Source: Rubrobacter taiwanensis | GTDB taxonomy: Bacteria; Actinomycetota; Rubrobacteria; Rubrobacterales; Rubrobacteraceae | DNA length: 64,000 nt | Direction: 5' to 3' | Assembly: GCF_004337705.1 (NCBI RefSeq) | Contig: NZ_SKBU01000016.1 | Location: forward strand, 1 to 64,000 | Part shown: positions 39,116-52,933 of the stretch, one piece after another | Position numbering within the stretch: position 1 is the stretch's first letter | How the letters are laid out: the number at the start of each line of letters is the position of its first letter | Translations under genes and position numbers: made by a program | The notes under the pieces: model-generated | What the model was told of the DNA's origin: nothing | What the model saw: the letters and a program-made list of their open reading frames with translations, nothing else | The model's database searches: none

Positions 39116-39147
39116 CGTTTCCCCACCATTTGCAGGGATTTCAGGAG

Positions 39148-39221
39148 TGGAGCCGAGGGGATTCGAACCCCTGACCTCCGCCGTGCAAAGGCGGCGCTCT
39201 CCCTATCTGAGCTACGGCCCC
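39148..39221 (-). tRNA. tRNA-Ala (anticodon TGC)
   Basis: A 74-nt cloverleaf with complete stems. The acceptor pairs GGGGCCG with CGGCTCC including the alanine identity pair G3-U70, the anticodon loop is TTTGCAC, and TTCGAAT is in the T loop; discriminator A. CCA is not encoded. A TAGAAT element about 12 nt upstream on the minus strand may be its -10 box. Confidence 0.98.
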
Positions 39222-39379
39222 ACGGGTACCGGGATATTCTACCGCGTTCTGAGCCGTCCGTTTTGGGACTAGACCATGGTCAGCAGGGCTTGATCCGCCC
39301 GGGTGCGCGAGCGGGACCCGGCGAGCAGGGTCTTACTCCGGTGACCGGGCGTGCAATACGGCGCCACCGGGGTTTCGTG

Positions 39380-39511
39380 AAGAGCCTTCAACTTAGTGTT
39401 CCCCCGGCCTTCTCCGGCTCCTTCTACCTCTGCGCCGCCCTCGTGGCCTCCGCCCTCCTCCTGGTCTACCCGGACCGCCGCAAGACGCCCCCCGGCAGCC
39501 TTGGTGTATAG
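39380..39511 (+). pseudogene. Possible C-terminal remnant of a membrane transporter
   Basis: In this gap of about 330 bp (39222-39548) a short frame ends with a convincing terminal membrane helix (G-S-F-Y-L-C-A-A-L-V-A-S-A-L-L-L-V-Y-P) and a basic tail, the usual end of an MFS permease. Nothing upstream continues it. It is weak evidence for a decayed transporter; the rest of the gap shows nothing but the tRNA promoter side. Confidence 0.3.
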
Positions 39512-39548
39512 TCGGCAGACACGCGGACGAGACGCGAGGAGGAGCGAT

Positions 39549-40895
39549 ATGGCGGACAGATACGACGCGGTGGTACTGGGGATGGGCCCCGGCGGGGAGG
39601 TTGCGGCGAGCCGCCTGATAAGCGGGGGCCTGAGGGTAGCGGTGGTGGAGCGGGAGCTCATCGGCGGGGAGTGCGCCTACTGGGCGTGCATCCCGTCGAA
39701 GACGCTGCTGAGGCCGCCGGAGGTCAGGAGCGAGGCGCAGCGGGCCTTCGGGACCGGGATTCCGGAGCTGGACCGGGGCGGCCTCTTCGACTACCGGGAC
39801 TGGATGATCCGGAACCTCGACGACTCGGCGCAGGTGGAGGGCTACGAGCAGCGGGGAGCCACGGTCATAAAGGGGGAGGGTAGGATCTCCGGCCCCGGCC
39901 GGGTCGAGGTGGGCGGGGAGATCCTGGAGGCGGAGCACATCGTCGTCGCCACCGGCTCGGCCCCGAACGTGCCTCCGGTGGAGGGCCTCGAAGGGGTGAC
40001 CGTGTGGACCAACCGGGAGGCCACCACCAGCCGCGAGGTGCCGGACAGAACGCTCATCATCGGCGGGGGGCCAAACGGGATAGAGGCGGCCCAGTGGCTC
40101 TCGCGCCTGGGCTCCCGGGTCACCGTGGTCCAGTCGGCGGACAGGCTCATAGACCGCGAGGACCCGGAGGTCGGGAGGCTCATAGAGGAGGCCCTGGAGG
40201 AGGAGGGCGTAACGGTCCTCACCGGCCGGCAGGCGGTGAGGGCGCGCAAAGAGGACGGGCGGACCGTGATAGAGCTGGACGACGGCTCGGAGGCGGAGAC
40301 CGACGTGGTACTGATCGCTGCCGGGCGCAGGCCCCGGACGCAGGGGCTTGGGCTGGAGACGGTCGGCGTGGAAGCGGAGGGCGGCGCCGTTCCCGTGGAC
40401 GAGCGCTGCCGGGCCGCCGACGGGGTGTGGGCCATCGGCGACGTGACGGGGGTGGCGCTCTTCACCCACGTGGCCAAGTACCAGGGCCGGGTCGCCGCCG
40501 ACAACATCCTCGGCAAAGAGCAGCGTGCCGACTACCGCGGCATCCCCCGGGTGGTCTTCTCCGACCCGGAGATCGCCGCCTGCGGCCTCACCGCAGAGCA
40601 GGCGAGAGAGCAGGGGATCGACGCCGCCGTCGCCACCGTAAAGCTCCCCGAGGTGCTCGCCAGACCCTGGACCTACGAGGAGAGCCCGCGGGGGCACCTG
40701 GGCCTGATCGCCGACCGGAAGCAGGGGGTGCTCGTCGGGGCGTGGGCCGTCGCCCCGCAGGCCGGGGAGTGGATCCACCAAGCCTCCCTGGCCATCCGGG
40801 CGGGAATCCCCATAGAGCGCCTGCTCGACACGGTGGCCCAGTTCCCTACCTACTCCGAAGGCTACCTGAACGCGCTGGAGGAGCTGGACCTCTAG
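39549..40895 (+). CDS. Pyridine nucleotide-disulfide oxidoreductase, dihydrolipoyl dehydrogenase-like
   Basis: 448 aa from ATG 39549 with GGAGGAG upstream. FAD-binding G-M-G-P-G-G near the N-terminus, redox-active disulfide C-x4-C in E-C-A-Y-W-A-C-I-P-S-K, NAD(P)-binding I-G-G-G-P-N-G-I-E-A and A-I-G-D-V-T-G. The C-terminal active-site base, normally in H-P-T, reads F-P-T-Y-S-E, so the proton relay of true lipoamide dehydrogenase is missing. It may be a ferredoxin/quinone or small-disulfide reductase rather than the E3 of the pdh operon. Stands alone upstream of the mercury operon. Confidence 0.85.
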   Translation: MADRYDAVVLGMGPGGEVAASRLISGGLRVAVVERELIGGECAYWACIPSKTLLRPPEVRSEAQRAFGTGIPELDRGGLFDYRDWMIRNLDDSAQVEGYEQRGATVIKGEGRISGPGRVEVGGEILEAEHIVVATGSAPNVPPVEGLEGVTVWTNREATTSREVPDRTLIIGGGPNGIEAAQWLSRLGSRVTVVQSADRLIDREDPEVGRLIEEALEEEGVTVLTGRQAVRARKEDGRTVIELDDGSEAETDVVLIAAGRRPRTQGLGLETVGVEAEGGAVPVDERCRAADGVWAIGDVTGVALFTHVAKYQGRVAADNILGKEQRADYRGIPRVVFSDPEIAACGLTAEQAREQGIDAAVATVKLPEVLARPWTYEESPRGHLGLIADRKQGVLVGAWAVAPQAGEWIHQASLAIRAGIPIERLLDTVAQFPTYSEGYLNALEELDL

Positions 40896-40995
40896 ACAGC
40901 GGCAAGAAAACGGGAAGAGTAGCCACCACCAAGGCGCTGCGCCGGCCGGGCGCAAACGCATCGGCCGGCGCTACCCACATCCCGCCTCCCAACCG

Positions 40996-41027
40996 TTGAC
41001 AAATTCTGATTGGCAAATATTATTTGC
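40996..41027 (+). promoter_or_regulatory. mer operon promoter with overlapping palindromic operator
   Basis: TTGACA (40996-41001), a 16-bp spacer and TATTAT (41018-41023) form a near-consensus promoter. A perfect palindrome GCAAATA-T-TATTTGC (41013-41027) covers the -10 box, just where a repressor would block RNA polymerase. The ArsR-type regulator at 42680 in the same operon is the obvious candidate to bind it, releasing on Hg(II). Confidence 0.8.
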
Positions 41028-41053
41028 ATAAACGAATGTATGGAGGTGCGGCT

Positions 41054-42664
41054 TTGGGTGGCGGGAGGATAAGGATACGGATCGGGGCCATGACGCGCCC
41101 CCGCTGCGAGGAGGCGGTGAGCCGGGCGCTGGAGGGTGCCGGGGCGCGCGGCGTCCGTGCGGACTTCCGGCGGGGCGAGGCCGTCTTTGAGGCACCGGAG
41201 GGCGTGGACGGGGAGGGGCTGAGGGAGGCCGCAGGCGTGGAGGGTTCTCTGGGGCGGACCGGCGGGGGAAGTGTGGACTACGACCTGGCGATCATCGGCT
41301 CGGGCAGCGCGGCGTTTGCGGCGGCGATCCGGGCCTCTGGAGAGGGGGCGCGGGTCGCCGTGATCGAGCGCGGGACGGTCGGGGGAACGTGCGTGAACGC
41401 GGGGTGCATCCCCTCGAAGAACCTGCTCGCGGCGGCGGAGGCATACCACCGGGCCGCGGGCCACCCCTTCCGGGGCATCGAGACGAAGGCCGGGGCAGTG
41501 GACTTTGGGGCGCTCGTCGGGATGAAGGCGGAGGTCGTCTTAAAGCTGCGCCGGGAGAAGTACGAGGAGCTCGCGGAGGAGTACGGGTTCGGGATAATCC
41601 GGGGGGAGGCCGCCTTCGTCTCGCCCGAGGCCATCGAGGCCGGGGGCAGGAGGATCACGGCGCAGAGGTTCCTGATCGCGACGGGGGCTGCGCCGTGGGT
41701 CCCGCCCGTAGCGGGGCTCGAGGAGGCGGGCTACCTCACCTCCACGAGCGCGATGGAGCTCAAGGAGCTGCCGGAGTCGCTCGTCGTCATCGGCGGCAAC
41801 TACATCGGGCTCGAGATGGGGCAGCTCTTCGCCGATCTGGGGAGCAAGGTAACCATCGTGGAGATGCTCGACCGGCTCGTTCCCGGCGAAGAGCCCGAGG
41901 TCTCGCGGTGGATCGAACGCATCCTGCGGGAGCAGGGCGTCGAGGTGATCACCTCCGCCCGGGTCGGCCGCGTTGAAGGAGGCGGGAAGAAGACCGTCGT
42001 GGCGGAGGCCGGCAGAAAAGAGCGCAGGATGGAGGCAGAGGAGGTGCTCGTCGCCACCGGCCGCCGCCCGGTCCTCGACGGGCTCGGCCTGGAGAAGGCC
42101 GGGATAGAGCGCGACGGGCGCGGCGCCCTGGTGCTGGACGAGACCCTCCGAACGACCAACCCGCGGGTCTTCGCGGCGGGGGATGTCACCGGGGCCCCGC
42201 AGTTCGTCTACGTCGCGGCCGCGCAGGGCACCCTCGCCGCCGAGAACGCCCTGCTTGGGGCCGGGCGCAAGGTGGACTACGAGGCGCTGCCGCGGGTGAC
42301 GTTCACCACGCCGAACATCGCCGCGGCGGGCCTGACCGACGCCCGGGCGCGCGAGCTGGGCTACCGCTGCGAGTGCCGGGTTGTGGGCCTGGAGAACGTC
42401 CCCCGGGCCATCGTCAACCTGGACACCCGCGGGATGGTCAAGATCGTCGCCGAGCAGGGGAGCGGGAGGGTCCTCGGGGTGCACGCCGTCGGGGACAGCG
42501 CCGGTGAGATCATCCTGGCCGGGGTGTACGCGGTGAAGTTCGGCCTCACCGTGCGGGATCTCGCCGAGACCTGGGCCCCGTACCTGACGATGTCCGAGGG
42601 GATAAGGCTCGCCGCCCAGGCCTTCGGGCGCGACGTCTCGAAGCTCTCCTGCTGTGCGGCGTGA
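41054..42664 (+). CDS. merA: Mercury(II) reductase
   Basis: 536 aa. The TTG 41054 start has GGAGG 7 nt upstream; the frame is open to within the operator but other starts lack a site. Residues ~1-70 form an NmerA-like HMA domain whose G-M-T-C-x-x-C is altered to A-M-T-R-P-R-C, leaving one cysteine. The catalytic core follows: I-I-G-S-G-S-A-A, active disulfide G-G-T-C-V-N-A-G-C-I-P-S-K, A-A-G-D-V-T, and the diagnostic C-terminal pair in L-S-C-C-A-A that hands Hg(II) to the inner site. NADPH-dependent reduction of Hg(II) to Hg(0). First gene of the mer operon. Confidence 0.95.
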   Translation: MGGGRIRIRIGAMTRPRCEEAVSRALEGAGARGVRADFRRGEAVFEAPEGVDGEGLREAAGVEGSLGRTGGGSVDYDLAIIGSGSAAFAAAIRASGEGARVAVIERGTVGGTCVNAGCIPSKNLLAAAEAYHRAAGHPFRGIETKAGAVDFGALVGMKAEVVLKLRREKYEELAEEYGFGIIRGEAAFVSPEAIEAGGRRITAQRFLIATGAAPWVPPVAGLEEAGYLTSTSAMELKELPESLVVIGGNYIGLEMGQLFADLGSKVTIVEMLDRLVPGEEPEVSRWIERILREQGVEVITSARVGRVEGGGKKTVVAEAGRKERRMEAEEVLVATGRRPVLDGLGLEKAGIERDGRGALVLDETLRTTNPRVFAAGDVTGAPQFVYVAAAQGTLAAENALLGAGRKVDYEALPRVTFTTPNIAAAGLTDARARELGYRCECRVVGLENVPRAIVNLDTRGMVKIVAEQGSGRVLGVHAVGDSAGEIILAGVYAVKFGLTVRDLAETWAPYLTMSEGIRLAAQAFGRDVSKLSCCAA

Positions 42665-42679
42665 GGGAAGGAGGCGCGG

Positions 42680-43057
42680 ATGCCGGAGAAGACGCGGGAG
42701 AAGGTGCCGCTCCGGGAAGTTAGGATCGGGAGGGACAGCCCGGACATGAAGGTAATAGCCAGGCTCTTCGACGGGTTCGCCGACCCCACCAGGATGTCCA
42801 TACTCGCGTACCTGGCGCGGCGGGGCGAGGCCGGGGTCTCCGAGATCGTCGAGGCCGTGGGCGCGACCCAGCCGCGGGTCTCGGTCCACCTGCGGTGTCT
42901 CGCCTGGTGCGGCTACGTCCGGGGGAGGCGCGAGGGCAGGCGGGCCTACTACGCGATAGCCGACGAGCGGGTGCTCAGCATGCTCCGGCTGGCGGAGGAG
43001 CTCCTGGCGGACAACCGGGAGCACGTCGAGGCCTGCGAGGTCACCGGCGAATGCTAG
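42680..43057 (+). CDS. ArsR/SmtB-family metal-sensing repressor (mer regulator)
   Basis: 125 aa winged helix protein: A-D-P-T-R-M-S-I-L-A-Y-L-A-R and recognition helix T-Q-P-R-V-S-V-H-L. Cysteines C-L-A-W-C in the following helix and two more near the C-terminus (H-V-E-A-C-E-V-T-G-E-C) match the CmtR/actinobacterial MerR-type sensor site for Hg, Cd or Pb. It lies 15 bp after merA. It should bind the palindrome at 41013-41027 and autoregulate the operon. Actinobacterial mer operons typically use such ArsR proteins in place of MerR. Confidence 0.92.
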   Translation: MPEKTREKVPLREVRIGRDSPDMKVIARLFDGFADPTRMSILAYLARRGEAGVSEIVEAVGATQPRVSVHLRCLAWCGYVRGRREGRRAYYAIADERVLSMLRLAEELLADNREHVEACEVTGEC

Positions 43058-43118
43058 AGCTCCGGACACCGCTTCCGGCCACAAGAGGCCGGAAGCGCCG
43101 GCGCGAGGGGGCAAGAAG

Positions 43119-43436
43119 TTGAGAAGGATCGCGGGTTATCTGCTGGTGGTGACGGCGCTGCTCGCCTGCCCCTGCCACCTGGCACTGCTGCTGCCGGTGG
43201 CTCTGGGCCTGTTCGGGGGCACGGCGGCCGCCGCGGCCCTCGGGGCGAACATCGGGTGGGTGCTTGCCGGGGCGACCGTCTACTTCGTCGGCGCGCTCGC
43301 TGGCGGGCTCTACCTGCTGAGCCGGCGGGCCAGGAGAGGCGTGCGCGCGACCGAAGAAACGCAGGACTGCTGCCCCCCGCCCTCCGACGACCGCAAGGCC
43401 GGGCGCAGGAAGCCCGTCGGAGGGAGGCGGCATTGA
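43119..43436 (+). CDS. MerE-like mercury transport membrane protein
   Basis: 105 aa, TTG start. Two membrane helices; the first carries L-A-C-P-C-H-L-A-L-L-L-P-V and then G-L-F-G-G-T-A, matching the MerE hallmark C-P-C-H-L followed by A-G-T-x-A-G. The C-terminal tail has a D-C-C-P-P-P cysteine pair that could pass Hg(II) to MerA. It imports Hg(II) or organomercury for reduction. No classical MerT or MerP is present, so this is probably the main uptake protein here. Confidence 0.82.
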   Translation: MRRIAGYLLVVTALLACPCHLALLLPVALGLFGGTAAAAALGANIGWVLAGATVYFVGALAGGLYLLSRRARRGVRATEETQDCCPPPSDDRKAGRRKPVGGRRH

Positions 43437-44005
43437 CTACGGCGAAGAAGAGAGCGGCCGCCGTGGCGGTCCTGCTCGCGGCCGCGCTCGTTGCGGGCGC
43501 CTGCGGCGGCTTCGGGTCCGGGAAAGGAGCATCCGGGGGTCGCGGGGAGACGGTACAGGCGACGACCGCCGCGACCGAGGGGACCGGCGGCGCGGTAGCC
43601 ACGGCCCCGAGCATCGAGACCCTCGCCGGCGAGAGATTCGACCTCTCGGACGAGCGGGGGAAGGTGGTCGCCCTCTACTTCATGGCCGGCTGGTGCGGAA
43701 GCTGCATCCCCGAGGCCCGGAGCTGGTCGGAGCTCTACCCGAGCTACAGGGATGAAGGGCTGGAGGTGCTCGTCGTCTCCGCCGACCCGAACGACAGCCC
43801 CCAGACCATCGAGCGGTTCCGGCGTGCCGGCGGGATAGGGGATCTCCCGTGGGCCATCGACAGGACGGGCAGGTTCACCCGGGCGCTCGGCGTGCGGGCG
43901 CTCGACACCACCATAATCCTGGACCGGCGGGGGCGCGTGGCCTACAGGGATGCGGTACCCACGCCCGAGAAAAAGCTCAGAGAGGAGCTGGAGGAGGTTC
44001 TGTGA
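43433..44005 (+). CDS. Thioredoxin-like (TlpA/ResA-type) lipoprotein
   Basis: 190 aa. The TTG start overlaps the merE-like stop (TTGA) with GGGAGG upstream. Signal peptide with lipobox V-A-G-A-C, a low-complexity linker, then a thioredoxin fold with W-C-G-S-C active site and the cis-Pro region near L-D-T-T-I-I-L-D. An extracytoplasmic membrane-anchored thiol protein, kept reduced by the CcdA encoded next. Within a mercury operon it may replace MerP as the outside Hg(II) carrier; this is inference from context. Confidence 0.85.
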   Translation: MTTAKKRAAAVAVLLAAALVAGACGGFGSGKGASGGRGETVQATTAATEGTGGAVATAPSIETLAGERFDLSDERGKVVALYFMAGWCGSCIPEARSWSELYPSYRDEGLEVLVVSADPNDSPQTIERFRRAGGIGDLPWAIDRTGRFTRALGVRALDTTIILDRRGRVAYRDAVPTPEKKLREELEEVL

Positions 44006-44763
44006 GCGAGATACAGCAGCTGGTGGCCCAGTGGATCTCCACCCTCTCCGGGATGCTGCCCTTCGGCGTCGCCTTCGGCGCCGGGATGGTCGCCGCCGTT
44101 AACCCCTGCGGCTTCGCCATGCTCCCGGCCTACCTCTCGCTCTACCTGGGCGCCGAGGAGGAGGGCTTTGGGAAGCGTCCGGTGGCCGCCCGCCTGCTGC
44201 GGGCGCTCCTCGTCGGCGTGACCGTCTCGCTGGGCTTCGTGCTCCTGTTCTCCGTGGTCGGGCTCGCCGTCTCCTCCGGCGGGGTGGCGCTGCTTTCGGC
44301 GATGCCGTGGGTGGGCGTCCTGATCGGGGTGGCGCTCGTAGTGCTCGGGGTCTGGATGCTCGCCGGACGCACCGTCCACGCGGGGGCCTTCGGGCGGCTT
44401 GGGGCGAGGATAGGCAACCCCGCCGACGTGAGCCTGAGGGGCTTCTTCCTCTTCGGGCTCGCCTACGGGGTCGGCTCCCTGAGCTGCACCCTGCCGGTCT
44501 TCCTGGTGGTGGTAGGCACCGGCCTCGCCTCGGGCGGCCTGCTCGCGGGCATCGGGCAGTTTCTCGCCTTCGGGCTCGGGATGGCCTCGGTGCTCGTTGC
44601 CCTCACCCTGGCGCTGGGACTCTTCAAGCAGGGCCTGGTGAAGCGGCTGCGGAGGGCGATGCCCTACGTGCGGCTCGCCTCCGCGGCCCTGCTCGTCGTG
44701 GCCGGCGTCTACGTGGTCCATTACTGGGTCTCCTCGCAGACCGGAGGCGCCCTGCCGGGTTAG
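44002..44763 (+). CDS. ccdA: CcdA/DsbD-type transmembrane thiol-electron transporter
   Basis: 253 aa with six membrane helices. GTG 44002 overlaps the upstream stop (GTGA). Both redox half-motifs are present: N-P-C-G-F-A-M-L-P in helix 1 and G-S-L-S-C-T-L-P-V-F in helix 4. It carries reducing equivalents from cytosolic thioredoxin to extracytoplasmic thiol proteins, presumably the lipoprotein encoded directly before it. Placement inside the mer operon links reductant export to mercury handling. Confidence 0.9.
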   Translation: MSEIQQLVAQWISTLSGMLPFGVAFGAGMVAAVNPCGFAMLPAYLSLYLGAEEEGFGKRPVAARLLRALLVGVTVSLGFVLLFSVVGLAVSSGGVALLSAMPWVGVLIGVALVVLGVWMLAGRTVHAGAFGRLGARIGNPADVSLRGFFLFGLAYGVGSLSCTLPVFLVVVGTGLASGGLLAGIGQFLAFGLGMASVLVALTLALGLFKQGLVKRLRRAMPYVRLASAALLVVAGVYVVHYWVSSQTGGALPG

Positions 44764-44807
44764 ACTTAACCCTGCTCTGCAAGAGGCGAGAAGAGAGGAG
44801 GCGGAGC

Positions 44808-45272
44808 GTGGCCGGGATGCCGCAGGAAGGGGAGCGCTTCCCCGAGCTCTGGTTCGTGACCGAGGAGGGTGAGAGGGTCTCCACCGGGGACCTTCTCGGG
44901 CAGACGACCGTCCTCTACTTCTATCCCAAGGACCAGACCCCGGGCTGTACCAAAGAGGCCTGCGCCTTCAGGGACCGGATGCCCGACTACGAGCGAGCAG
45001 GGATAAAGGTCTACGGGGTGTCGCTAGATCCCCCCGAATCCCACCGGCGCTTCCGGGAGCGGAACGGGCTCAACTTCCCCCTGCTCACCGACGAGGACGG
45101 TCAGGCCGCAAAAAGCCTCGGCATCCTCTCCGAGAAGGGCTACGCCCGGCGGGTCACCTTCCTGCTAGACCCGGAGGGGACCGTGGTCCGGGTCTACCCC
45201 GAGGTCTCCCCCGAGACCCACGCCGGAGAGGTGCTCGCCGCCGCTAGTAGCGCCGGCCCCTCTGCCGGCTGA
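44808..45272 (+). CDS. bcp: Peroxiredoxin Q / bacterioferritin comigratory protein
   Basis: 154 aa from GTG 44808 with GGAGG six bases upstream. The PrxQ motif T-P-G-C-T-K-E-A-C has the peroxidatic Cys and, five residues later, the resolving Cys. Thiol-dependent reduction of H2O2 and organic peroxides. It follows ccdA by 45 bp on the same strand and may be the last gene of the mer operon. Its 3' end overlaps the convergent PIN-domain gene by 79 bp. Confidence 0.92.
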   Translation: MAGMPQEGERFPELWFVTEEGERVSTGDLLGQTTVLYFYPKDQTPGCTKEACAFRDRMPDYERAGIKVYGVSLDPPESHRRFRERNGLNFPLLTDEDGQAAKSLGILSEKGYARRVTFLLDPEGTVVRVYPEVSPETHAGEVLAAASSAGPSAG

Positions 45273-45718
45273 TATCGAAGCGGGCGGAGGAGGAGACGGC
45301 CATCACCCCGCCCCGCGCCGCACCGGGTCATCAGCGAGAGCACGACGAGGATCGCGGGTTCACCCTCCCTCCGGCCGTCCTCGGCGAAGGGCGCAGCCTC
45401 CACCACGAGCGCGTCCCAGAAGGAGAGGGACATGCTCCTGCTGCGCTCGATGGCGGCGAGGATCATAGCCCCGTCCACACGCACCAGCGGCAACAGCAAG
45501 AAGTCTCTCACTCTCGCGGCGGCCCTCTCCTGAGAGAGCGGCCTGGCTAGCTTGCGGGTCGCATTGACGTAGAACTCCTGCAGCACCTGGGTGCTCAGGA
45601 CCACCCGGTTCTCCTCGACGGCCCTCTCAAACGCCTCGATGGCCCCGGCCTTCTTCTGCGGCTCGTCATCATCGTACATGTAGAGCAGGACGTTGGTGTC
45701 GAAGAAGGAGCGGCTCAC
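45194..45718 (-). CDS. PIN-domain toxin (VapC-like), atypical C-terminus
   Basis: 174 aa from GTG 45718, which overlaps the antitoxin stop (GTGA). PIN RNase residues: S-F-F-D-T-N-V-L-L-Y, V-L-Q-E-F-Y, S-F-W-D-A-L and a possible last acid in A-E-D-G. After that point the family's usual short end (S-E-D-x-x-x-G...N-P-F) is replaced by an unrelated tail of about 50 residues that runs antisense through the end of bcp. A frameshift or deletion probably altered the 3' end; activity is uncertain. Predicted target is RNA. Confidence 0.8.
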   Translation of the reverse strand: MSRSFFDTNVLLYMYDDDEPQKKAGAIEAFERAVEENRVVLSTQVLQEFYVNATRKLARPLSQERAAARVRDFLLLPLVRVDGAMILAAIERSRSMSLSFWDALVVEAAPFAEDGRREGEPAILVVLSLMTRCGAGRGDGRLLLRPLRYQPAEGPALLAAASTSPAWVSGETSG

Positions 45719-45975
45719 TTCTTGGGATACCGTCCGAGCCTCTCCTCGTAGGCGTCCTCCCGCTTCCACTTGCGTCCGCCGGGACCCGAGCCGGCGCCTC
45801 CCCGGCGCGCGTCCTCGATGATCCTGCGCGCCGCCTCTCTCCGCTCCCGCCTCTGCCCGGCGTACTCCTCGAGGTACTCCCGCAAGACCGCGTTGACCGA
45901 GGTGTCCTCCTCGAGCGCCCGCATCCTCGCCCGCTTCAACGTATCCTCGTCCACCGTGATCGTCAGGTTCGCCAT
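45715..45975 (-). CDS. Ribbon-helix-helix antitoxin (VapB-like)
   Basis: 86 aa. The N-terminal beta strand N-L-T-I-T-V-D-E-D-T-L and helices A-R-M-R-A-L-E-E-D-T-S-V-N-A-V-L-R-E-Y-L form an RHH DNA-binding fold; the C-terminus (K-W-K-R-E-D-A-Y-E-E-R) is the usual toxin-wrapping tail. Stop-start overlap with the PIN toxin supports a toxin-antitoxin operon that autoregulates. Confidence 0.88.
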   Translation of the reverse strand: MANLTITVDEDTLKRARMRALEEDTSVNAVLREYLEEYAGQRRERREAARRIIEDARRGGAGSGPGGRKWKREDAYEERLGRYPKK

Positions 45976-46014
45976 GCTGCCTCCCGTCTACACGGGATCA
46001 GTGTAGCACGGAAA

Positions 46015-46183
46015 TTAGAGGTCGAGGGTGTTGAAGAGCTTCTGAAGCTCCGCGTAGGCGTCCCTCTGGTCGCCCTCGGAACGGATCCCGACGTAGACGA
46101 CCTCCGCGGCCGCCTCTCTTCCAGAGTGAGCAGCCTCCAGATCCTTCCCCGCCGGGCAGAGGCAAGTACTCTCGGCATGCTCT
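46015..46183 (-). pseudogene. Orphan C-terminal coding fragment
   Basis: Downstream of the helicase stop, one frame encodes a coherent C-terminus (A-A-E-V-V-Y-V-G-I-R-S-E-G-D-Q-R-D-A-Y, E-L-Q-K-L-F-N-T-L) ending TAA at 46015. There is no start codon in this frame after the helicase stop. It may be a decayed small gene or a lost third member of the helicase/methylase operon. No family recognised. Confidence 0.35.
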
Positions 46184-49100
46184 CTACGCCTGCCGCCACC
46201 TCAGCGTCCCCAGAACCTCCCTGTGCTCCCCGTGCTCTAAGAAGCCCAGCTTAGCGGGGCGCATCCCATCGCAGAAAGAGTCCACGAAGACCTTCAGCAG
46301 GCGCGAGCCGCGCAGGACGTCGAGGTCATCGGAGAGGTGGTCGACCACCTCGCGAGAGACGAAGACGATGAGCTTCGCCCGCGGCCGGGAGGCCATGACG
46401 TTGAAGCGGTTTAGGCTCATGAGGAACTCGTCCTCGTCGGCTATGGCGTCGGGGTCGCCGAGGGCGTAGGAGGCGATGATCACGTCCCGTTCCTGGCCCT
46501 GGAAGCGCTCGACGGTGTCCACGGCATCCCGGATGAGCCCAGGATCTTCACCCGGGAAGATGCGCTGGAGCCGGCTCACGATAAGCCCCTGTTGCGCCCG
46601 GTGGGGGGTCACGACGCCGACCGCCTTCTTCCAGAACTCCCCGGTAGAGTACGGTTCTCCCCGCGCCGGCAGAACCCCCCCGCCCGCGGGGTCGCGCTCG
46701 CCGAGGAGCCCCGCCGCCCGGCCGTGAAGCAGCGCGATGAGGGCGGCCACGGCGTCGGCCTCGAAACGGTTCCACTGGCTGCTGCGGCCTTCGGGGTAGA
46801 CGAAGCAGGAGGCGGGGTGGGACGGGTCCAGCAACGCCGACCACTCGGGCGTCCAGTAGAGGGAGGCGGGCCAGCCTCCGGGCCGAGTGACCGGAAGAGG
46901 TTTGGCGAGGTTCAGCCGGAGGTCGGGGGAGTAGCTGCGAAGCGTGCGTTCGTAGCCGGCCTCGAGCGAGAACTCCACCAGGGTGGCGTTGGAGCGGTAG
47001 TTCACGTCCAGCATGACGGGCCCTATGCCGTGGATGTCCTCGCAGAAGGCGTAGACGGAGCCGACCATACCTTCGAGGCCCAAAGGCGGCTCGGCCTGCC
47101 GGATGGGGGGCAGCTGCTTGGGGTCTCCGGCGAGGACGACGCTGCCTCCCTTCGCCAGAGAGCAGAGGGCGAGTATGGAGAGGGCGACGTCCATCTGCGA
47201 GGCCTCGTCTATGAGGATGAGGTCGAAGAGCTCGCCCCGGGCCTCGCCGGTGTGAGCTTTGATCAGGTTGTGGACCTGGTTCGGAGTCGTCCCAACCACG
47301 GTGATGCCCTTCTGGTCCTCGAGCCGGATCAGAAGTTCCGCCACGCGCTCCGTGATCCGGGAGCGGTTGAGCTCGGTGTCTATCTCTTCGGGGACGCCGG
47401 AATCGGGCGGGCGGGTGTAGCTCCGCACCCGGTGCAGCCGGAAGGCGTCCTCGGGGAGCAGGATCTTGAGCTTCTCGTAGACGCCGAGGAGCACGACATC
47501 CATGGCGTTGTAGTTCTGGGCGCAGACGAGGATCCTGAGCGGCTTGCTTCGCCGGTACGCTTCCAGGGCGGCGCCCAGGATCACCGCGCGCGCCGTGCGG
47601 CTCTTGCCGGTCCCCGGCGGCCCCCAGATGAGGGAGAGGCGGCGGGTCAGGGCCTCCTCCCAGGCCCGCCACTGGGTGGGGTTGAGGCCGTGGCTCTCGA
47701 GTGCTTTGCGCACCGGCTCCAGCTCCCGGCCGACGCGGGCTTCGTGCATGGCCCTGGCGCCCCACAGGAAGTCCGCCGGAGGGGTGTGGGCGGTGGGACG
47801 GGAGCCGCGGGCGGTGATCTGGCCGAGAGCCCGGCGCACCAGGGGGTCGTCGCGGGCGGCGGGCGGGTTGCCGATGGCCTGAAGCGCGGCGAGGAGCTTC
47901 TTGGTGAAGTAGTCGGTAAAGACCCTGTCGAGGACCACATTCGAGCCGAAGTCCGCTATACCGGCCGCTTCGAGGTCCTCGAGACTGGGGTATCCCGAAA
48001 GGGTACGGGGGTCCAGCGCGATCAGGCACCGGTCCCGGTCGAGGGCCGCGATGGTTACCCTCGTGATCTCCCCCATCCGCCGCTGGTACTCGGAGGCGTA
48101 CATCTCTTCGAGAGAGGTCCCCTCCGTCATGCTCTTGAGGCTGCGGTCCAGGAAGTCCGGGCGGTCCTCGGGCGCGAGCGCGAGCTCGAAGTCGCCCTTC
48201 TCGAACTTCACCTCCCGGCTCCCCATCGCGAGCCGGTAGACCCTGCGCCCGGAGCGGGGTTTCAGGCCGAGGGCTCTGAGAGCCCCGGCTTCGGCGTCTC
48301 CGGAGAGACGTTCGGGCAATCGGGCGCACTCGAACTTCGCCTCCCGGGCGTGCGGGGGCAGGGCGTGCAGCTGCTGCACCTCCAGCTGCTGCATGCCGGC
48401 GTCGAGGCGGGCGAAGGCGTACCAGAGCTGGCCGTCGTAGCTGAGGCGGGACTCGCGCTGCGGCGGTCTTATAGCCTGTATGCGCGGGGCGGCCTGGTTG
48501 GGAAGGCGCGGGCGCAGATCGCTCTCCAGCCGCCGGACGACGGCCTCGAGGGCGGTAAGCCGCAGCGCCACCGTGCGGCGCAGGGTTCCGATCTGGACGC
48601 TCCAGTGCCGGGGGCTCGCGGATCGCGACCATATCTCGTGCGCCCGCTCGGAGGGGATCTGGTCGCTCAGGGCGTCCTCGAAGAGCGGGTGGACGTCGAA
48701 CTTCTTCAGGTTCTCGGGGAGGTTGTCGGGGTGGTAGCAGCGGGCCGTCTGGAGCAGGCTGTAGTAGTGCGGGACGGGAGCGGCGAGGACGGATCTCACG
48801 ACATCCCGCACCGTGGTGATGGGCGACTGGCGCGTAGAGAGCCTGGGGTTCTGCAGCAGTTCCTCCGGCGGGAAGAGCCAGGCCAGCTTCCAGAGGCTCT
48901 CCGAGTCGAGGATGGCACTCAGATGCCGCCCCACCACCCGCGAGAGGTGCTCGAACTGCAGCGCGTCCCAGAGATAGAACTGCACCGTGGCGCGGCTATC
49001 CAGCTGTTGAGCCTCTTCGAGTATCTCCGAGATCCTGCCCAGAAACGCCAGAAGCTCCCGCCGCTCGGATTCGAGATCCTTGAGGTCCACGACGAACACC

Positions 49101-50467
49101 CCGGCCTCCCACCTCCGGTGCCGGCGAGGGGTGGTACTGTCCGAACCGAACGGGCGGGGCTCGATCCAGAGAGCCTTGATGCCGAAGGCGAGGGTGATGG
49201 CGCTGCCCACGTCGAAGTCCGCGGAGAGGAAGACGCGGAGATCGGTCCACTTCGGCATCACCGCCGAGGTGCCGCTGTCTTTCGGGATGGCCGCAACACC
49301 GCTCCTTAGCGCCTCCGCCCGCCTGGAGACCACCGTGCGGGCCGCCTTGAGAACGTGGTGCACATCGAAGATGGAATCTTCGGGCGGGCGACCGGCCAGA
49401 ACTTCCACGTCCCTCACCCCTCTCTCCTGCAGGGCTGTGCTCGCCCCCTGGGAGATGAAGGCCACCCGGCTGAGGTGCTTCTTCCTTTCGGCCTCGGGCA
49501 TGCAGTGGTCGGGGTGATCCGTCCTCTCCCCCCGGCTCACCCACGGGTAGCCGAGGTAGTCGCAGCCCTTGCAGCGGTTGTCCACGTGCCAGGGCAGCTC
49601 CCGCCACGGCGTCGAGAGAACCTCCGGCAGTTCCTCCGCAAAGAAGCGCCGGAGGCGGAAGGCGAAGACCTCGAAGGGGACCGGTTCCAGATCCCGCTCC
49701 AGCGCCGCGCGCAACCGGCCGTCGGCCGGAGGCTCGCCCCGCCGCCCCATCTCCCGGTGAGCAACGACGAGCTCGGCGGCCTCGTGCGAGCCGGGCCACA
49801 CCGCCCCCTCGGGCACGGCGACGAAGCGGCGATCCAGGCCCCTGTCCGCGAGCCATCCGGCCAGCGCCATCGTGTAGTAGGCGACCTCGGCGAAATATCC
49901 GGGTGAGGGCTCGGCGGTGAGCTTTATGTCTATGACGCGCAGCTGTAGGCGCCGGTCGTCCGCGTCGAGGGGATACGTATCTCCGGAGGGTTCCGCCGCC
50001 CGGGGAAAGTGGCGCGGCGGGAGCACCTGAACGATATCCGGGCGCACCCCGGCGTACTCCAGGCCGTATTCGTCGCGCAGGCTCGCGATGCCGAGCGCAC
50101 GCTCGAAGGCGTGTCCCACCCCGTACTCAGCTTCGGCGAGGAACCGTCCGGGCCGGACGCCGGAGAGGGCCTCTTCCAGCGGCATGCTGCGATACTGCGT
50201 CCGTCCCGAATCGTCGGTGTAGGCCTCCCCCACCACGGACTCTTCGCCGAACGCCCCGGCGAGATCGCCCAGCTTCTGAGCCTGCCACTCCTCGCCGAGC
50301 CGGGCGATCTGCTCGAGCCCGGGCCGGGGTCTCTGGCGGGGAGGCATGCCCTGCTCCTCTCTCTCCGGACGGAACCTCTGCGTATCCGGGGAGAGGTTCA
50401 GGCGCAGCTGGCGTTTGCATCCGGTGCGGAAGTACTGGGAGATGACCCGCTTAGCGAGCTGCGGCAT
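46184..50467 (-). CDS. Cas4/AddB-like Fe-S nuclease fused to UPF1-type SF1 helicase
   Basis: 1427 aa. Start ATG 50467 keeps the family N-terminus (Q-Y-F-R-T-G-C-K-R-Q-L-R-L) with Cys17; the partner cysteines C-K-G-C (~298-301) and H-C (~321) complete an AddB/Dna2/Cas4-type iron-sulfur cluster around a PD-(D/E)XK core (R-P-D-I-V, I-D-I-K at ~178, A-E-V-A-Y-Y). Residues ~380-520 look like the RNase H-like region of TM0106/COG2251 proteins (D-L-R-V-F-L-S-A-D-F-D). The helicase has Walker A G-P-P-G-T-G-K-S at ~953, I-D-E-A-S-Q, G-D-P-K-Q-L-P-P, N-Y-R-S and F-Q-G-Q-E-R-D. Overlaps the methylase gene by 17 bp. Confidence 0.9.
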   Translation of the reverse strand: MPQLAKRVISQYFRTGCKRQLRLNLSPDTQRFRPEREEQGMPPRQRPRPGLEQIARLGEEWQAQKLGDLAGAFGEESVVGEAYTDDSGRTQYRSMPLEEALSGVRPGRFLAEAEYGVGHAFERALGIASLRDEYGLEYAGVRPDIVQVLPPRHFPRAAEPSGDTYPLDADDRRLQLRVIDIKLTAEPSPGYFAEVAYYTMALAGWLADRGLDRRFVAVPEGAVWPGSHEAAELVVAHREMGRRGEPPADGRLRAALERDLEPVPFEVFAFRLRRFFAEELPEVLSTPWRELPWHVDNRCKGCDYLGYPWVSRGERTDHPDHCMPEAERKKHLSRVAFISQGASTALQERGVRDVEVLAGRPPEDSIFDVHHVLKAARTVVSRRAEALRSGVAAIPKDSGTSAVMPKWTDLRVFLSADFDVGSAITLAFGIKALWIEPRPFGSDSTTPRRHRRWEAGVFVVDLKDLESERRELLAFLGRISEILEEAQQLDSRATVQFYLWDALQFEHLSRVVGRHLSAILDSESLWKLAWLFPPEELLQNPRLSTRQSPITTVRDVVRSVLAAPVPHYYSLLQTARCYHPDNLPENLKKFDVHPLFEDALSDQIPSERAHEIWSRSASPRHWSVQIGTLRRTVALRLTALEAVVRRLESDLRPRLPNQAAPRIQAIRPPQRESRLSYDGQLWYAFARLDAGMQQLEVQQLHALPPHAREAKFECARLPERLSGDAEAGALRALGLKPRSGRRVYRLAMGSREVKFEKGDFELALAPEDRPDFLDRSLKSMTEGTSLEEMYASEYQRRMGEITRVTIAALDRDRCLIALDPRTLSGYPSLEDLEAAGIADFGSNVVLDRVFTDYFTKKLLAALQAIGNPPAARDDPLVRRALGQITARGSRPTAHTPPADFLWGARAMHEARVGRELEPVRKALESHGLNPTQWRAWEEALTRRLSLIWGPPGTGKSRTARAVILGAALEAYRRSKPLRILVCAQNYNAMDVVLLGVYEKLKILLPEDAFRLHRVRSYTRPPDSGVPEEIDTELNRSRITERVAELLIRLEDQKGITVVGTTPNQVHNLIKAHTGEARGELFDLILIDEASQMDVALSILALCSLAKGGSVVLAGDPKQLPPIRQAEPPLGLEGMVGSVYAFCEDIHGIGPVMLDVNYRSNATLVEFSLEAGYERTLRSYSPDLRLNLAKPLPVTRPGGWPASLYWTPEWSALLDPSHPASCFVYPEGRSSQWNRFEADAVAALIALLHGRAAGLLGERDPAGGGVLPARGEPYSTGEFWKKAVGVVTPHRAQQGLIVSRLQRIFPGEDPGLIRDAVDTVERFQGQERDVIIASYALGDPDAIADEDEFLMSLNRFNVMASRPRAKLIVFVSREVVDHLSDDLDVLRGSRLLKVFVDSFCDGMRPAKLGFLEHGEHREVLGTLRWRQA

Positions 50468-52565
50468 CCGCTTCCTTCCCCTTCTCTAGATCAAACAATC
50501 CGGGAACCTGTTCTAGCGCCGCACCGAGCGGCATGCTGTGACCACCTTCAGGAGCCGGAAAGCACCCGAGGGCGCCCGCCACCAGGCAGGCGCGCAGGAA
50601 GTTGCGCCGGTCCGCCTCGCGGAACTCGCCCGTCCCGGAGAGGCGCTCCGTCCAGCGGGCGCAGTGCTCCCGGGCACGCTCCAGCTGCGCGCTGGAGAGA
50701 ACCGGCGGGAGAGCGGGAGGTCCACCCTCGCCCCTCACGGCCACGAAGACCGCATCCCATCTGCTCGCTCCCGCGTGGTTGTGCGGGCCACGGTCTCCGT
50801 TCCCGAGCAGGGGGAAGACCTGTAGGGGGCGCAGAGAAGCCGCAGCCATGGCGCAGGCGAGGGCATGCCAGGCACCGGCGGTGCGGTGCTGGTAGGTAAA
50901 GACCAGCCGGCCGTTCCTCTTCAGAACGCGGGAGATCTCGCGGAAGCTCTCCGCAAGCGAGCGCCCGTACTCCTCGACCGCGCGCGGGCAGCGGCCCGCC
51001 GCGGAGAGGTCGTGTTCGAAGCCGGTGGGGCCATCGCCGGCGGGGGTGAGCCCCAGAAGCTGCATCCAGGGCAGGAAGAAGTCCGAGAGCTCGGAGTAGG
51101 CCACGTTATCCAGGTAGGGCGGATCGGTGAGTACCAGATCGACGCTCTCTCCGGGGAGGACGCTCAGATCGCGGGAGTCGGCGTGCAAGATCCTGGCGGG
51201 AGCGGCAGAGGGGCGGTCGCGCACCTTCCGGAAGCCCCCTTCAAGAAGCGGCTCTTTGGGCTGGCGGGCGAACTCGATAGCCCGCTGCACCTGCCGCACG
51301 GCGTTGGGGAAGGTGCCGCGCCCCGTGCCGTCGAGCCACGGGTTGATCTCGACGGGCCGCGTGACGTGCCGGAAGGCGCGTACGGAGAACAGCGGGGCGA
51401 GGCGGCGCCACCCGAAGGCGTAGTGGGCCATCATGCAGCTGGTCGTCAGGTGATCGCTGAAGGCGAGGGCGAGGCCTTCGCGTTCGGGACCCCGAATCCC
51501 GCCGATCGCCTCGGCCAGAAGCGAGAGGTGCAAAAGCTGGCGGGCGTTGAAGAGCTCCGAGTACCGCTCATATCCGTACCGCAGCAGGCGGTCGTCCGCC
51601 CTCCCCGCGCGCGGGATGCTGCGGGAGGGCACCCATGGGAGGGAGCCGTCCGGCGCGGCGCGCTCCCCAAGCGCACGCCTCGCCGCCGCGAAGCGCCCGT
51701 AATCCTCCTCTGTGGCCGTCCGGAAGCGCCGCCTAAAGAGGGGCACGGGCCTTCCGGGTTCGGGATCGGCCTCCAGGGTCTCCAGTGCGAAGAGCCGCCA
51801 CTGCGGAGGGCGCCCGGTGCGCGCGGCGACGTCGATCAGGCGCTCCCGGTACCCGCAGCCGGGACACCGCACACGCCCGAACCGTACCGGTCCGGCCTCG
51901 ATAGGCGCCGTGATACCGCAGCCGCCGCAGCGTAGCTCGTCCTCCTCCCGGGGCAGCTCCCGCACGGCGTGGCACGAAGGGCAGAACACCCACTGCCTGC
52001 TGCCTTCGGCCTCGTAGGCGAGCCGGTGGTGAGGGTGGGCTTCAAACTCCTCCCCGCAGCCCGCGCAGCGCACCACCTGCACCCAGAAGTAGTGGAGAAC
52101 CGTCCGCTCCCCCTCCGGCGTCCGGGTCCTGTAGTAGGGGGCGAGTCTGCCCCCTACCTCTCGCGCCAGCATCTCCAGCGCCGGCTCCAGGTCGGGGTGA
52201 AGGGCGGCCTGCGTCTCGAAGCGCGTGATGGCGCAGGCCACCGCGTCCACGTCCACCCCGGTCACCTCCGCCCCCAGCCGCCGGGCCTCCACCACCGAGG
52301 TGCCGCCGCCGACGAACGGGTCAAGCACGGTCCTGCCCCGCCAGTAGCGGTCCACACCCTCGTAGTAGGCCGTCCAGAAGTCCCCCTCCTCCGGCAGCGC
52401 CGCGGCCGTCAGCAGGGCGCGGAAGGCGGAGCCGAACCGGCGGGCGAACCACCGGTGCGCCCCGTAGATCGGCCGCGGACGGCGCCCCTCGCGCGCGGCG
52501 ATGCGGGCCAGCTCCTCGACCGGCAGCGATCCGGCATCCAGCATGGTCGTCCGCCCGCCGTTCAA
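50451..52565 (-). CDS. Large zinc-ribbon DNA methyltransferase (DUF1156-like)
   Basis: 704 aa with TTG 52565 (GGGAGA upstream) or ATG 52544 as start. N-terminal P-I-Y-G-A-H-R-W-F-A-R-R resembles DUF1156 methylases. AdoMet motif D-P-F-V-G-G-G-T-S lies near residue 81, and catalytic T-D-P-P-Y-L at ~479 is the amino-methyltransferase (N6-adenine or N4-cytosine) signature. Between them is an insert with at least four C-x2-C zinc knuckles (C-A-G-C, C-P-S-C, C-G-G-C, C-P-G-C). The motif order fits a DNA base methylase. It is coupled to the nuclease-helicase downstream, so the two likely form a modification/cleavage system. Confidence 0.88.
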   Translation of the reverse strand: MNGGRTTMLDAGSLPVEELARIAAREGRRPRPIYGAHRWFARRFGSAFRALLTAAALPEEGDFWTAYYEGVDRYWRGRTVLDPFVGGGTSVVEARRLGAEVTGVDVDAVACAITRFETQAALHPDLEPALEMLAREVGGRLAPYYRTRTPEGERTVLHYFWVQVVRCAGCGEEFEAHPHHRLAYEAEGSRQWVFCPSCHAVRELPREEDELRCGGCGITAPIEAGPVRFGRVRCPGCGYRERLIDVAARTGRPPQWRLFALETLEADPEPGRPVPLFRRRFRTATEEDYGRFAAARRALGERAAPDGSLPWVPSRSIPRAGRADDRLLRYGYERYSELFNARQLLHLSLLAEAIGGIRGPEREGLALAFSDHLTTSCMMAHYAFGWRRLAPLFSVRAFRHVTRPVEINPWLDGTGRGTFPNAVRQVQRAIEFARQPKEPLLEGGFRKVRDRPSAAPARILHADSRDLSVLPGESVDLVLTDPPYLDNVAYSELSDFFLPWMQLLGLTPAGDGPTGFEHDLSAAGRCPRAVEEYGRSLAESFREISRVLKRNGRLVFTYQHRTAGAWHALACAMAAASLRPLQVFPLLGNGDRGPHNHAGASRWDAVFVAVRGEGGPPALPPVLSSAQLERAREHCARWTERLSGTGEFREADRRNFLRACLVAGALGCFPAPEGGHSMPLGAALEQVPGLFDLEKGKEADAAAR

Positions 52566-52648
52566 GCAGCATCTCCCTTCGCGCGCATCTTTTCATTGTG
52601 CCTCTCCGCCCCGGCGCGGGCAAAGGGGTGCGCGCCTAACAGAGACGG

Positions 52649-52654
52649 TACAAT
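52649..52654 (+). promoter_or_regulatory. Possible -10 box of fmdB
   Basis: TACAAT lies 42 nt before the fmdB start in the gap between the divergent methylase and fmdB genes; no good -35 hexamer accompanies it. Confidence 0.3.
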
Positions 52655-52696
52655 AGTGAGTGCGAGGAAAACGAGCGCTGTGAGGTGTTCCCGAAG

Positions 52697-52933
52697 ATGG
52701 CCCTGTACGAGTACAAGTGCCCCGATTGCGAGACCTCTTTCGAGCTGATGCGCTCCATGAGCGCGGCCGACGCTCCGGCCGAGTGTCCGGCCTGCGGCTC
52801 GACCGGGGGCCGGCGGCAGCTCTCCACCTTCACCTCCCTGAAGCCGGGCGGCTCCGAGGGCTTCGCCTACACCCCGGCCACGGAGCGCCTGGGCGGAGGC
52901 TGTTGCGGAGGCTCCTGCGGCTGCGCCCACTAA
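52697..52933 (+). CDS. FmdB-family zinc-ribbon protein
   Basis: 78 aa. N-terminal Y-E-Y-K-C-P-D-C and C-P-A-C-G form the CxxC...CxxC zinc ribbon of FmdB-type regulatory proteins; the tail has a Gly/Cys-rich G-G-C-C-G-G-S-C-G-C that could bind further metal. ATG 52697 has GTGAGG upstream. Family function is poorly known (named for formamidase regulation). The DUF309 frame begins right after its stop, suggesting translational coupling. Confidence 0.9.
   Translation: MALYEYKCPDCETSFELMRSMSAADAPAECPACGSTGGRRQLSTFTSLKPGGSEGFAYTPATERLGGGCCGGSCGCAH

Follow-up and report, generated by a model that had tools for sequence, protein, structure and literature searches.

In the 64,000-nucleotide stretch of Rubrobacter taiwanensis DNA analyzed here (positions 1 to 64,000 of contig NZ_SKBU01000016.1, hereafter the window), two overlapping minus-strand genes at 46184–52565 encode a DNA amino-methyltransferase (M) and a large nuclease-helicase protein (R). 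From comparison with relatives, we propose that M and R are likely to form a two-gene, ATP-dependent restriction-modification (RM) system with a Dna2-like restriction subunit. The proposal draws on the structure of the genes, the active sites conserved in both proteins, the fixed pairing of R with a methylase, the exchange of methylase class across the R family, and the defense context and mobility of the pair.

In such a system, M would methylate a base amino group within a specific sequence of the host DNA, probably at N6 of adenine given its DPPY motif. R, an iron-sulfur (Fe-S) nuclease fused to a superfamily 1 (SF1) 5'-3' helicase, would use ATP to attack unmarked DNA, unwinding it from a site, an end or a nick and degrading or cutting it along the way. 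The putative 5'-3' (SF1B) direction of translocation is the one suggested by similarity to UPF1 and DNA2. Since R keeps a constant architecture while its family is paired with methylases of three classes, it probably does not perform all of the sequence recognition itself, and we lean slightly toward site reading by R in complex with M, in the way of Type III systems. With rather less confidence, we consider it possible that the pair is a distinct kind of ATP-dependent RM, in which a Dna2-like SF1 R without specificity of its own is directed by a paired methylase of the m6A (N6-methyladenine) or m4C (N4-methylcytosine) type that sets both the target and the decision between self and non-self. 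If this is true, one restriction engine serves several methylase chemistries.

Gene structure and conserved active sites

The operon in the window comprises two genes, and the source genome (3.0 Mb) has its kin in the Rubrobacteraceae. The features of the pair are as follows.

50451..52565, minus strand: M, class MA amino-methyltransferase of 704 aa carrying a zinc-ribbon insert; start codon TTG 52565 or ATG 52544
52299..52322, minus strand: M motif I DPFVGGGT (S-adenosylmethionine binding), residues 82-89; D82, F84, G86, G88 and T89 invariant in 17 relatives
51855..52067, minus strand: four zinc knuckles of M (CxxC x4), residues 167-237, from the alignment of 17 relatives
51114..51128, minus strand: M catalytic motif IV TDPPY, residues 480-484; D481, P482 and P483 invariant in 17 relatives
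50451..50467, minus strand: 17-bp overlap in which M ends and R begins, suggesting translational coupling
46184..50467, minus strand: R, 1427-aa nuclease / RNase H-like / SF1 helicase protein, the proposed restriction subunit
49478..50467, minus strand: putative Fe-S RecB/Cas4-type nuclease region of R, residues 1-330 (C17, E112, D144, D180, K182, E194, C299, C302, C322), from residue conservation and a TM0106 profile match
48908..49255, minus strand: RNase H-like fold of R, residues 405-520, acids D417/D419/D501, from the predicted fold with weak Foldseek matches
46343..47695, minus strand: SF1 UPF1/DNA2-type helicase of R, residues 925-1375, Walker A K955, DE 1087-1088, from AAA_11/AAA_12 and structure matches

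Both open reading frames stand as given in a preliminary description of the window made from its letters alone, although M may start at ATG 52544 rather than at TTG 52565. The 17-bp overlap is also kept in five related loci of the Rubrobacter family.

Among 22 homologues of R, the only invariant cysteines are C17, C299, C302 and C322, and E112, D144, D180-x-K182, E194, Walker A K955 and D1087/E1088 are likewise invariant. We take this pattern of four cysteines with acidic and lysine residues to be that of the Fe-S RecB/Cas4/Dna2 nuclease type. A distant branch of the family (group C, 28% identity) retains the four cysteines, D144, D180, K182 and the Walker residues. In a profile comparison, residues 173-529 aligned with the TM0106 family of RecB nuclease-helicases (E = 7e-6, probability 84%), and it is on the motifs and this match that we predict an N-terminal nuclease. 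Membership in the TM0106 family proper (TIGR03491) was rejected, as R scored 12.1 bits against a curated cut-off of 97.45, and the relation is a distant one. An AlphaFold model places a beta-beta-beta-alpha-beta-alpha arrangement, the RNase H-like fold, at residues 410-514, but catalysis by this domain is doubtful because acids 417 and 501 are altered in group C. An extra, uncharacterized middle region spans residues 530-925. The helicase part matches AAA_11/AAA_12, with UPF1/NAM7 and DNA2 as the closest solved structures. The conserved residues, the TM0106 profile, the predicted fold and the helicase families therefore bear out the earlier suggestion that R joins a Cas4/AddB-type nuclease, an RNase H-like region and an SF1 helicase.

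In M, motif I lies near the N-terminus and is followed by the four CxxC knuckles and then by TDPPY. The knuckle cysteine pairs (167/170, 195/198, 213/216 and 234/237) are invariant in 17 aligned relatives, with C216 nearly so; the knuckles are thus a hallmark of this methylase family and not an oddity of the window copy. The insert singled out as unusual in the preliminary description is consequently real but ordinary for its family. A DPPY motif usually denotes N6-adenine methylation and SPPY usually N4-cytosine methylation. The structure model of M is confident (predicted local distance difference test score 88) and returned generic methylase matches only in Foldseek (E = 0.006 or worse). 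Windowed identity along M revealed no sharply bounded hypervariable recognition domain, and no target-recognition domain was assigned. M is a distant relative of the DUF1156/HmaB methylases, with profile scores below cut-off (PF06634, 16.0 bits against 24; NF042963, 86.4 against 1000). Outside the R system, MA relatives at about 30-35% identity adjoin small, probable PD-(D/E)XK nucleases in a Type II-like arrangement at three loci, L028:2-2988, L031:7790-10770 and L029:9665-12854, which are candidate unannotated Type II systems; the nuclease assignment there is a reading of motifs, with no significant Pfam match.

Pairing of R with three methylase classes

Homologues were located by the sequence of R alone, giving 32 full or near-full loci after removal of duplicates. 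Their hosts are bacteria of many phyla, plasmids and one archaeal contig that is cut; among the bacteria are Rubrobacter marinus SCSIO 52915 (L037), Nocardioides aequoreus (L048), Hymenobacter setariae (L050) and Herpetosiphon geysericola (L054). In genomes sampled, R occurs at about 1 to 3%: in 7/246 Actinomycetota genomes (all seven in the same family), 3/251 Chloroflexota, 2/284 Myxococcota (the phylum of locus L044) and 3/296 Bacteroidota (the phylum of L050). GTDB species genomes gave 23 loci. Matches were also found in five plasmid records, one of which covers at least 80% of R, whereas a scan of viral contigs returned no relative of R and phage records gave a single match, to the helicase part only. 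In the archaeal locus (L052:3530-6913, Methanomethylicus), AbiE-like genes instead of a methylase precede R.

An amino-methyltransferase gene directly adjoins R in 29 of the 32 loci, so that methylase and nuclease genes are conserved as a unit, a general criterion for RM systems; this is the co-occurrence across genomes that the preliminary description had proposed to look for. In 26 loci the methylase is co-directional and upstream of R, at -17 to +13 bp in all except two, where the distances are 100 and 216 bp. The remaining three methylases are convergent and abut or overlap R (L096, L097 and L099). As a control, four TM0106 (TIGR03491) proteins with the same RecB-RNaseH-SF1 domain order as R were examined, and none had a methylase gene in flanks of 1-2 kb.

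The partners fall into three classes: the zinc-ribbon DPPY methylases (MA, 18 loci), beta-class SPPY methylases (MB, 8 loci) and a third SPPY type (MC, 3 loci). For MB, of 350 aa, a PADLOC model of Type II methylases gave a match at 4e-121; MC is the convergent class. One group C locus (L096:531-2892) carries two related SPPY methylases beside R, as in asymmetric-site systems in which both strands have to be marked. In a tree of R with 22 rows, MA and MB partners form two clean clades (support 100/100), with one change for each class, and the architecture of R shows no visible change where the methylase class is exchanged. With such an exchange on one engine, it becomes directly testable in what way a motor nuclease is informed of DNA methylation. 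The tree mixes phyla, and the Rubrobacter family holds both MA and MB types; together with the scattered hosts, this indicates horizontal transfer. Misbinned contigs or recent transfer are likely for L038-L041 and L057, where R proteins are 93-96% identical despite several named phyla.

An intact R without a nearby methylase gene is almost never found. R is a truncated remnant where it lacks a methylase in L027 and G076, the latter keeping only a C-terminal part at a place where the pair is complete in its relative G109. In L098, R is frameshifted at residue 288/289 and no methylase lies within 8 kb. This locus (L098:7142-11405) is on the megaplasmid of Methylorubrum extorquens AM1, and its broken, methylase-less R fits the idea that R does not survive intact without M. 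The R frames are also broken in L049, L055 and L056, where sequencing error in draft assemblies is possible.

Judged by the genes around them, R relatives sit in defense islands. Their neighbors include BrxHI and PglZ (L039), Type III Mod/Res with a DrmD-like gene (L047), JetC/Wadjet (L045), HsdM and HsdR (L044), HsdR/HsdM (L054), HsdM in L055 and an HsdR-like protein in L056, a Type ISP-like protein (L042) and ResIII (L058). Two copies of R are on conjugative plasmids, and one adjoins an annotated anti-phage dGTPase. The pairing, the islands and the plasmids thus lend comparative support to the restriction-type logic, modification enzyme plus cleavage enzyme, put forward in the preliminary description.

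Alternative explanations and known systems

Several observations weigh against an RM system built on a Dna2-like nuclease. Pfam searches with the N-terminal 925 residues of 21 R homologues gave nothing real, leaving the nuclease unrecognized, and a PDB profile search with the same part of R returned ribosomal chance matches only. Foldseek with the N-terminal model was weak, with RuvC and RNase T on top (E > 0.1), DNA2 at rank 6 and no significant match. In L053, R is intact and the nearest methylase, of the zinc-ribbon type, lies on the opposite strand at a distance of 2.6 kb; the archaeal L052 has no methylase in the 4.6 kb upstream of R, on a contig that ends inside R. Since the MA/MB exchange is a single event on the R tree, methylase interchange is not frequent. 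Finally, the neighbors of the pair in the window are mostly mercury and redox genes, not defense genes.

An alternative hypothesis is that R senses non-self DNA alone, through ends, single-stranded gaps or replication intermediates, and that M only protects or regulates, in the manner of DISARM or Druantia. UPF1-type motors load on single strands, R has the extra middle region, and its architecture does not visibly change with the class of its methylase. However, the very tight operon coupling, with no other conserved genes, is more like that of a simple methylase-restriction pair, and small nucleases are the partners of the Type II-like M relatives. We therefore regard sensing by R alone as unlikely, though not negligibly so.

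R could instead be a DNA-repair nuclease-helicase, like Dna2 or the TM0106 proteins whose architecture it matches, and the methylase an incidental neighbor. A housekeeping role of this kind is strongly disfavored by the methylase pairing and was rejected: R is patchy in the genomes sampled, travels on conjugative plasmids and has a tree that mixes phyla, and the outcome named beforehand as refuting, a housekeeping R in relatives lacking the methylase, was not what we found. It is similarly improbable that the pair has no function of its own and serves as an auxiliary module in BREX or some other larger system. BrxHI and PglZ are directly upstream in L039, upstream genes in L041 and L057 match in size and order, and MA is distantly related to the DUF1156 methylases of BREX-related systems. 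That context is nevertheless limited to one cluster of R proteins (93-96% identical), and other loci are near Type I, Type III or Wadjet genes or no other defense genes. Carriage on plasmids and islands would also suit a Type IV-like attack on methylated DNA or an addiction module that mainly stabilizes its carrier element, but we give this hardly any credence, as R would kill its host by cutting DNA that its own operon partner had methylated, and addiction, a side effect of most RM systems, is compatible with restriction.

Returning to the proposed restriction-modification by M and R, superfamily 2 (SF2) motors drive the ATP-dependent restriction enzymes that are well studied (Type I, Type III, Type ISP and CglI; PMC4267653), and ATP-dependent restriction would gain another solution in a conserved two-gene system whose engine is SF1 and Dna2-like. 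Type III (Mod/Res) and Type ISP (LlaGI/LlaBIII) systems likewise join a methylase and an ATP-driven nuclease-motor in a compact unit, but the Res and LlaGI motors are SF2, whereas that of R is of the SF1 UPF1/DNA2 type with an N-terminal Fe-S nuclease. Membership in Type III was rejected on the AAA_11/AAA_12 helicase, the NAM7/UPF1 and DNA2 structures as best matches and a ResIII score of 17.6 bits, below the cut-off of 22.5. Both m6A and m4C versions of Type III RM exist (PMC8259958). In CglI and NgoAVII, restriction is also ATP-dependent with a separate methylase, but unlike in the fused R, two proteins carry the nuclease and the ATPase, the latter being DEAD-family helicase-like (PMC4267653, PMC5737866).

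Among the window neighbors scanned there was no HsdS, HsdR or HsdM, which with a two-gene operon excludes Type I, and no PglZ or BrxC-type ATPase, which excludes BREX; PglZ was shown beside one relative only, that in L039. The absence of BREX, Type I and Type III hallmark genes noted in the preliminary description therefore held, and the motor is not SF2. DISARM membership was considered and rejected. The DUF1156 systems (BREX-related Type-1, PADLOC Hma; PMC12839542) have a methylase distantly related to M, but the pair has no DUF499 ATPase gene in its operon and M is a 704-aa protein with zinc knuckles. Membership was rejected, with DUF1156 below cut-off, no DUF499 match among the proteins scanned and a helicase that is SF1 and not Snf2.

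Eukaryotic DNA2 likewise has a four-cysteine Fe-S RecB-type nuclease followed by a UPF1-like SF1 helicase. R has this architecture, which does not amount to orthology, but its nuclease and helicase are separated by an RNase H-like fold and a long middle region, and it shares an operon with a methylase gene. A Cas4-like nuclease and an SF1 helicase are also united in the UvrD-Cas4 fusions that occur close to Type III RM genes and Dcm genes; their helicase is UvrD-type and they are described as ancillary (PMC5704561), whereas R is UPF1/DNA2-type and the sole restriction candidate in its operon. The closest PADLOC model for R is DpdJ (PDLC02895, 3.7e-48), a UPF1-like helicase fused to a YprA-type part, which differs in that the counterpart of R is divided between two proteins and joined to a second helicase. 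On plasmids of Methylobacterium (L100:3566-12408) and Azospirillum (L101), a homologue of the R helicase forms one protein with a helicase of the YprA/DpdJ type (2173 aa in L100). Upstream, a region that is a separate 774-aa protein in L100 shares 24-25% identity with the N-terminal half of R, as in a split and re-fused R relative. No MA, MB or MC relative was found in these two plasmid stretches. The UPF1-like CnuH of CoCoNuTs is among the nearest published descriptions (PMC11090510).

The open-licence literature and libraries searched held no description of the M/R pair, and a literature search for PLuB found nothing. This type of RM is apparently undescribed. As to the preliminary description's suggestion of a new or little-described class, a wholly new class is not indicated, since the logic is that of restriction-modification, and we view the pair as a variant of it with a Dna2-like engine and a predicted function. 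R is currently annotated as 'AAA domain-containing protein' or 'AAA family ATPase' and its partner as DNA methyltransferase, and defense catalogs would miss the pair because of such generic terms.

Surroundings of the pair in the window

The interval from tRNA-Ala to fmdB measures 13.5 kb in the window (39147-52697) and 98 bp in the related genome G011 (L115:7112-7284), placing the pair in an accessory block. Flanking direct repeats were looked for around this block and none was found. Downstream of R are two genes that are probably not part of the system.

45715..45975, minus strand: ribbon-helix-helix antitoxin, VapB-like, also beside the pair in L023
45194..45769, minus strand: PIN toxin open reading frame, VapC-like, C-terminus degraded after 45392

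The toxin-antitoxin pair reported next to the system is thus present, although similarity of the PIN protein to its L023 relative ends after residues 'VEAA' (45392), and the toxin may be frameshifted or degraded. The accessory block that holds the pair probably also carries a mercury-resistance cluster (41024-43057), made up of a mercuric-reductase-like flavoprotein with a C-terminal CCAA and, after it, a regulator of the ArsR family and a small protein.

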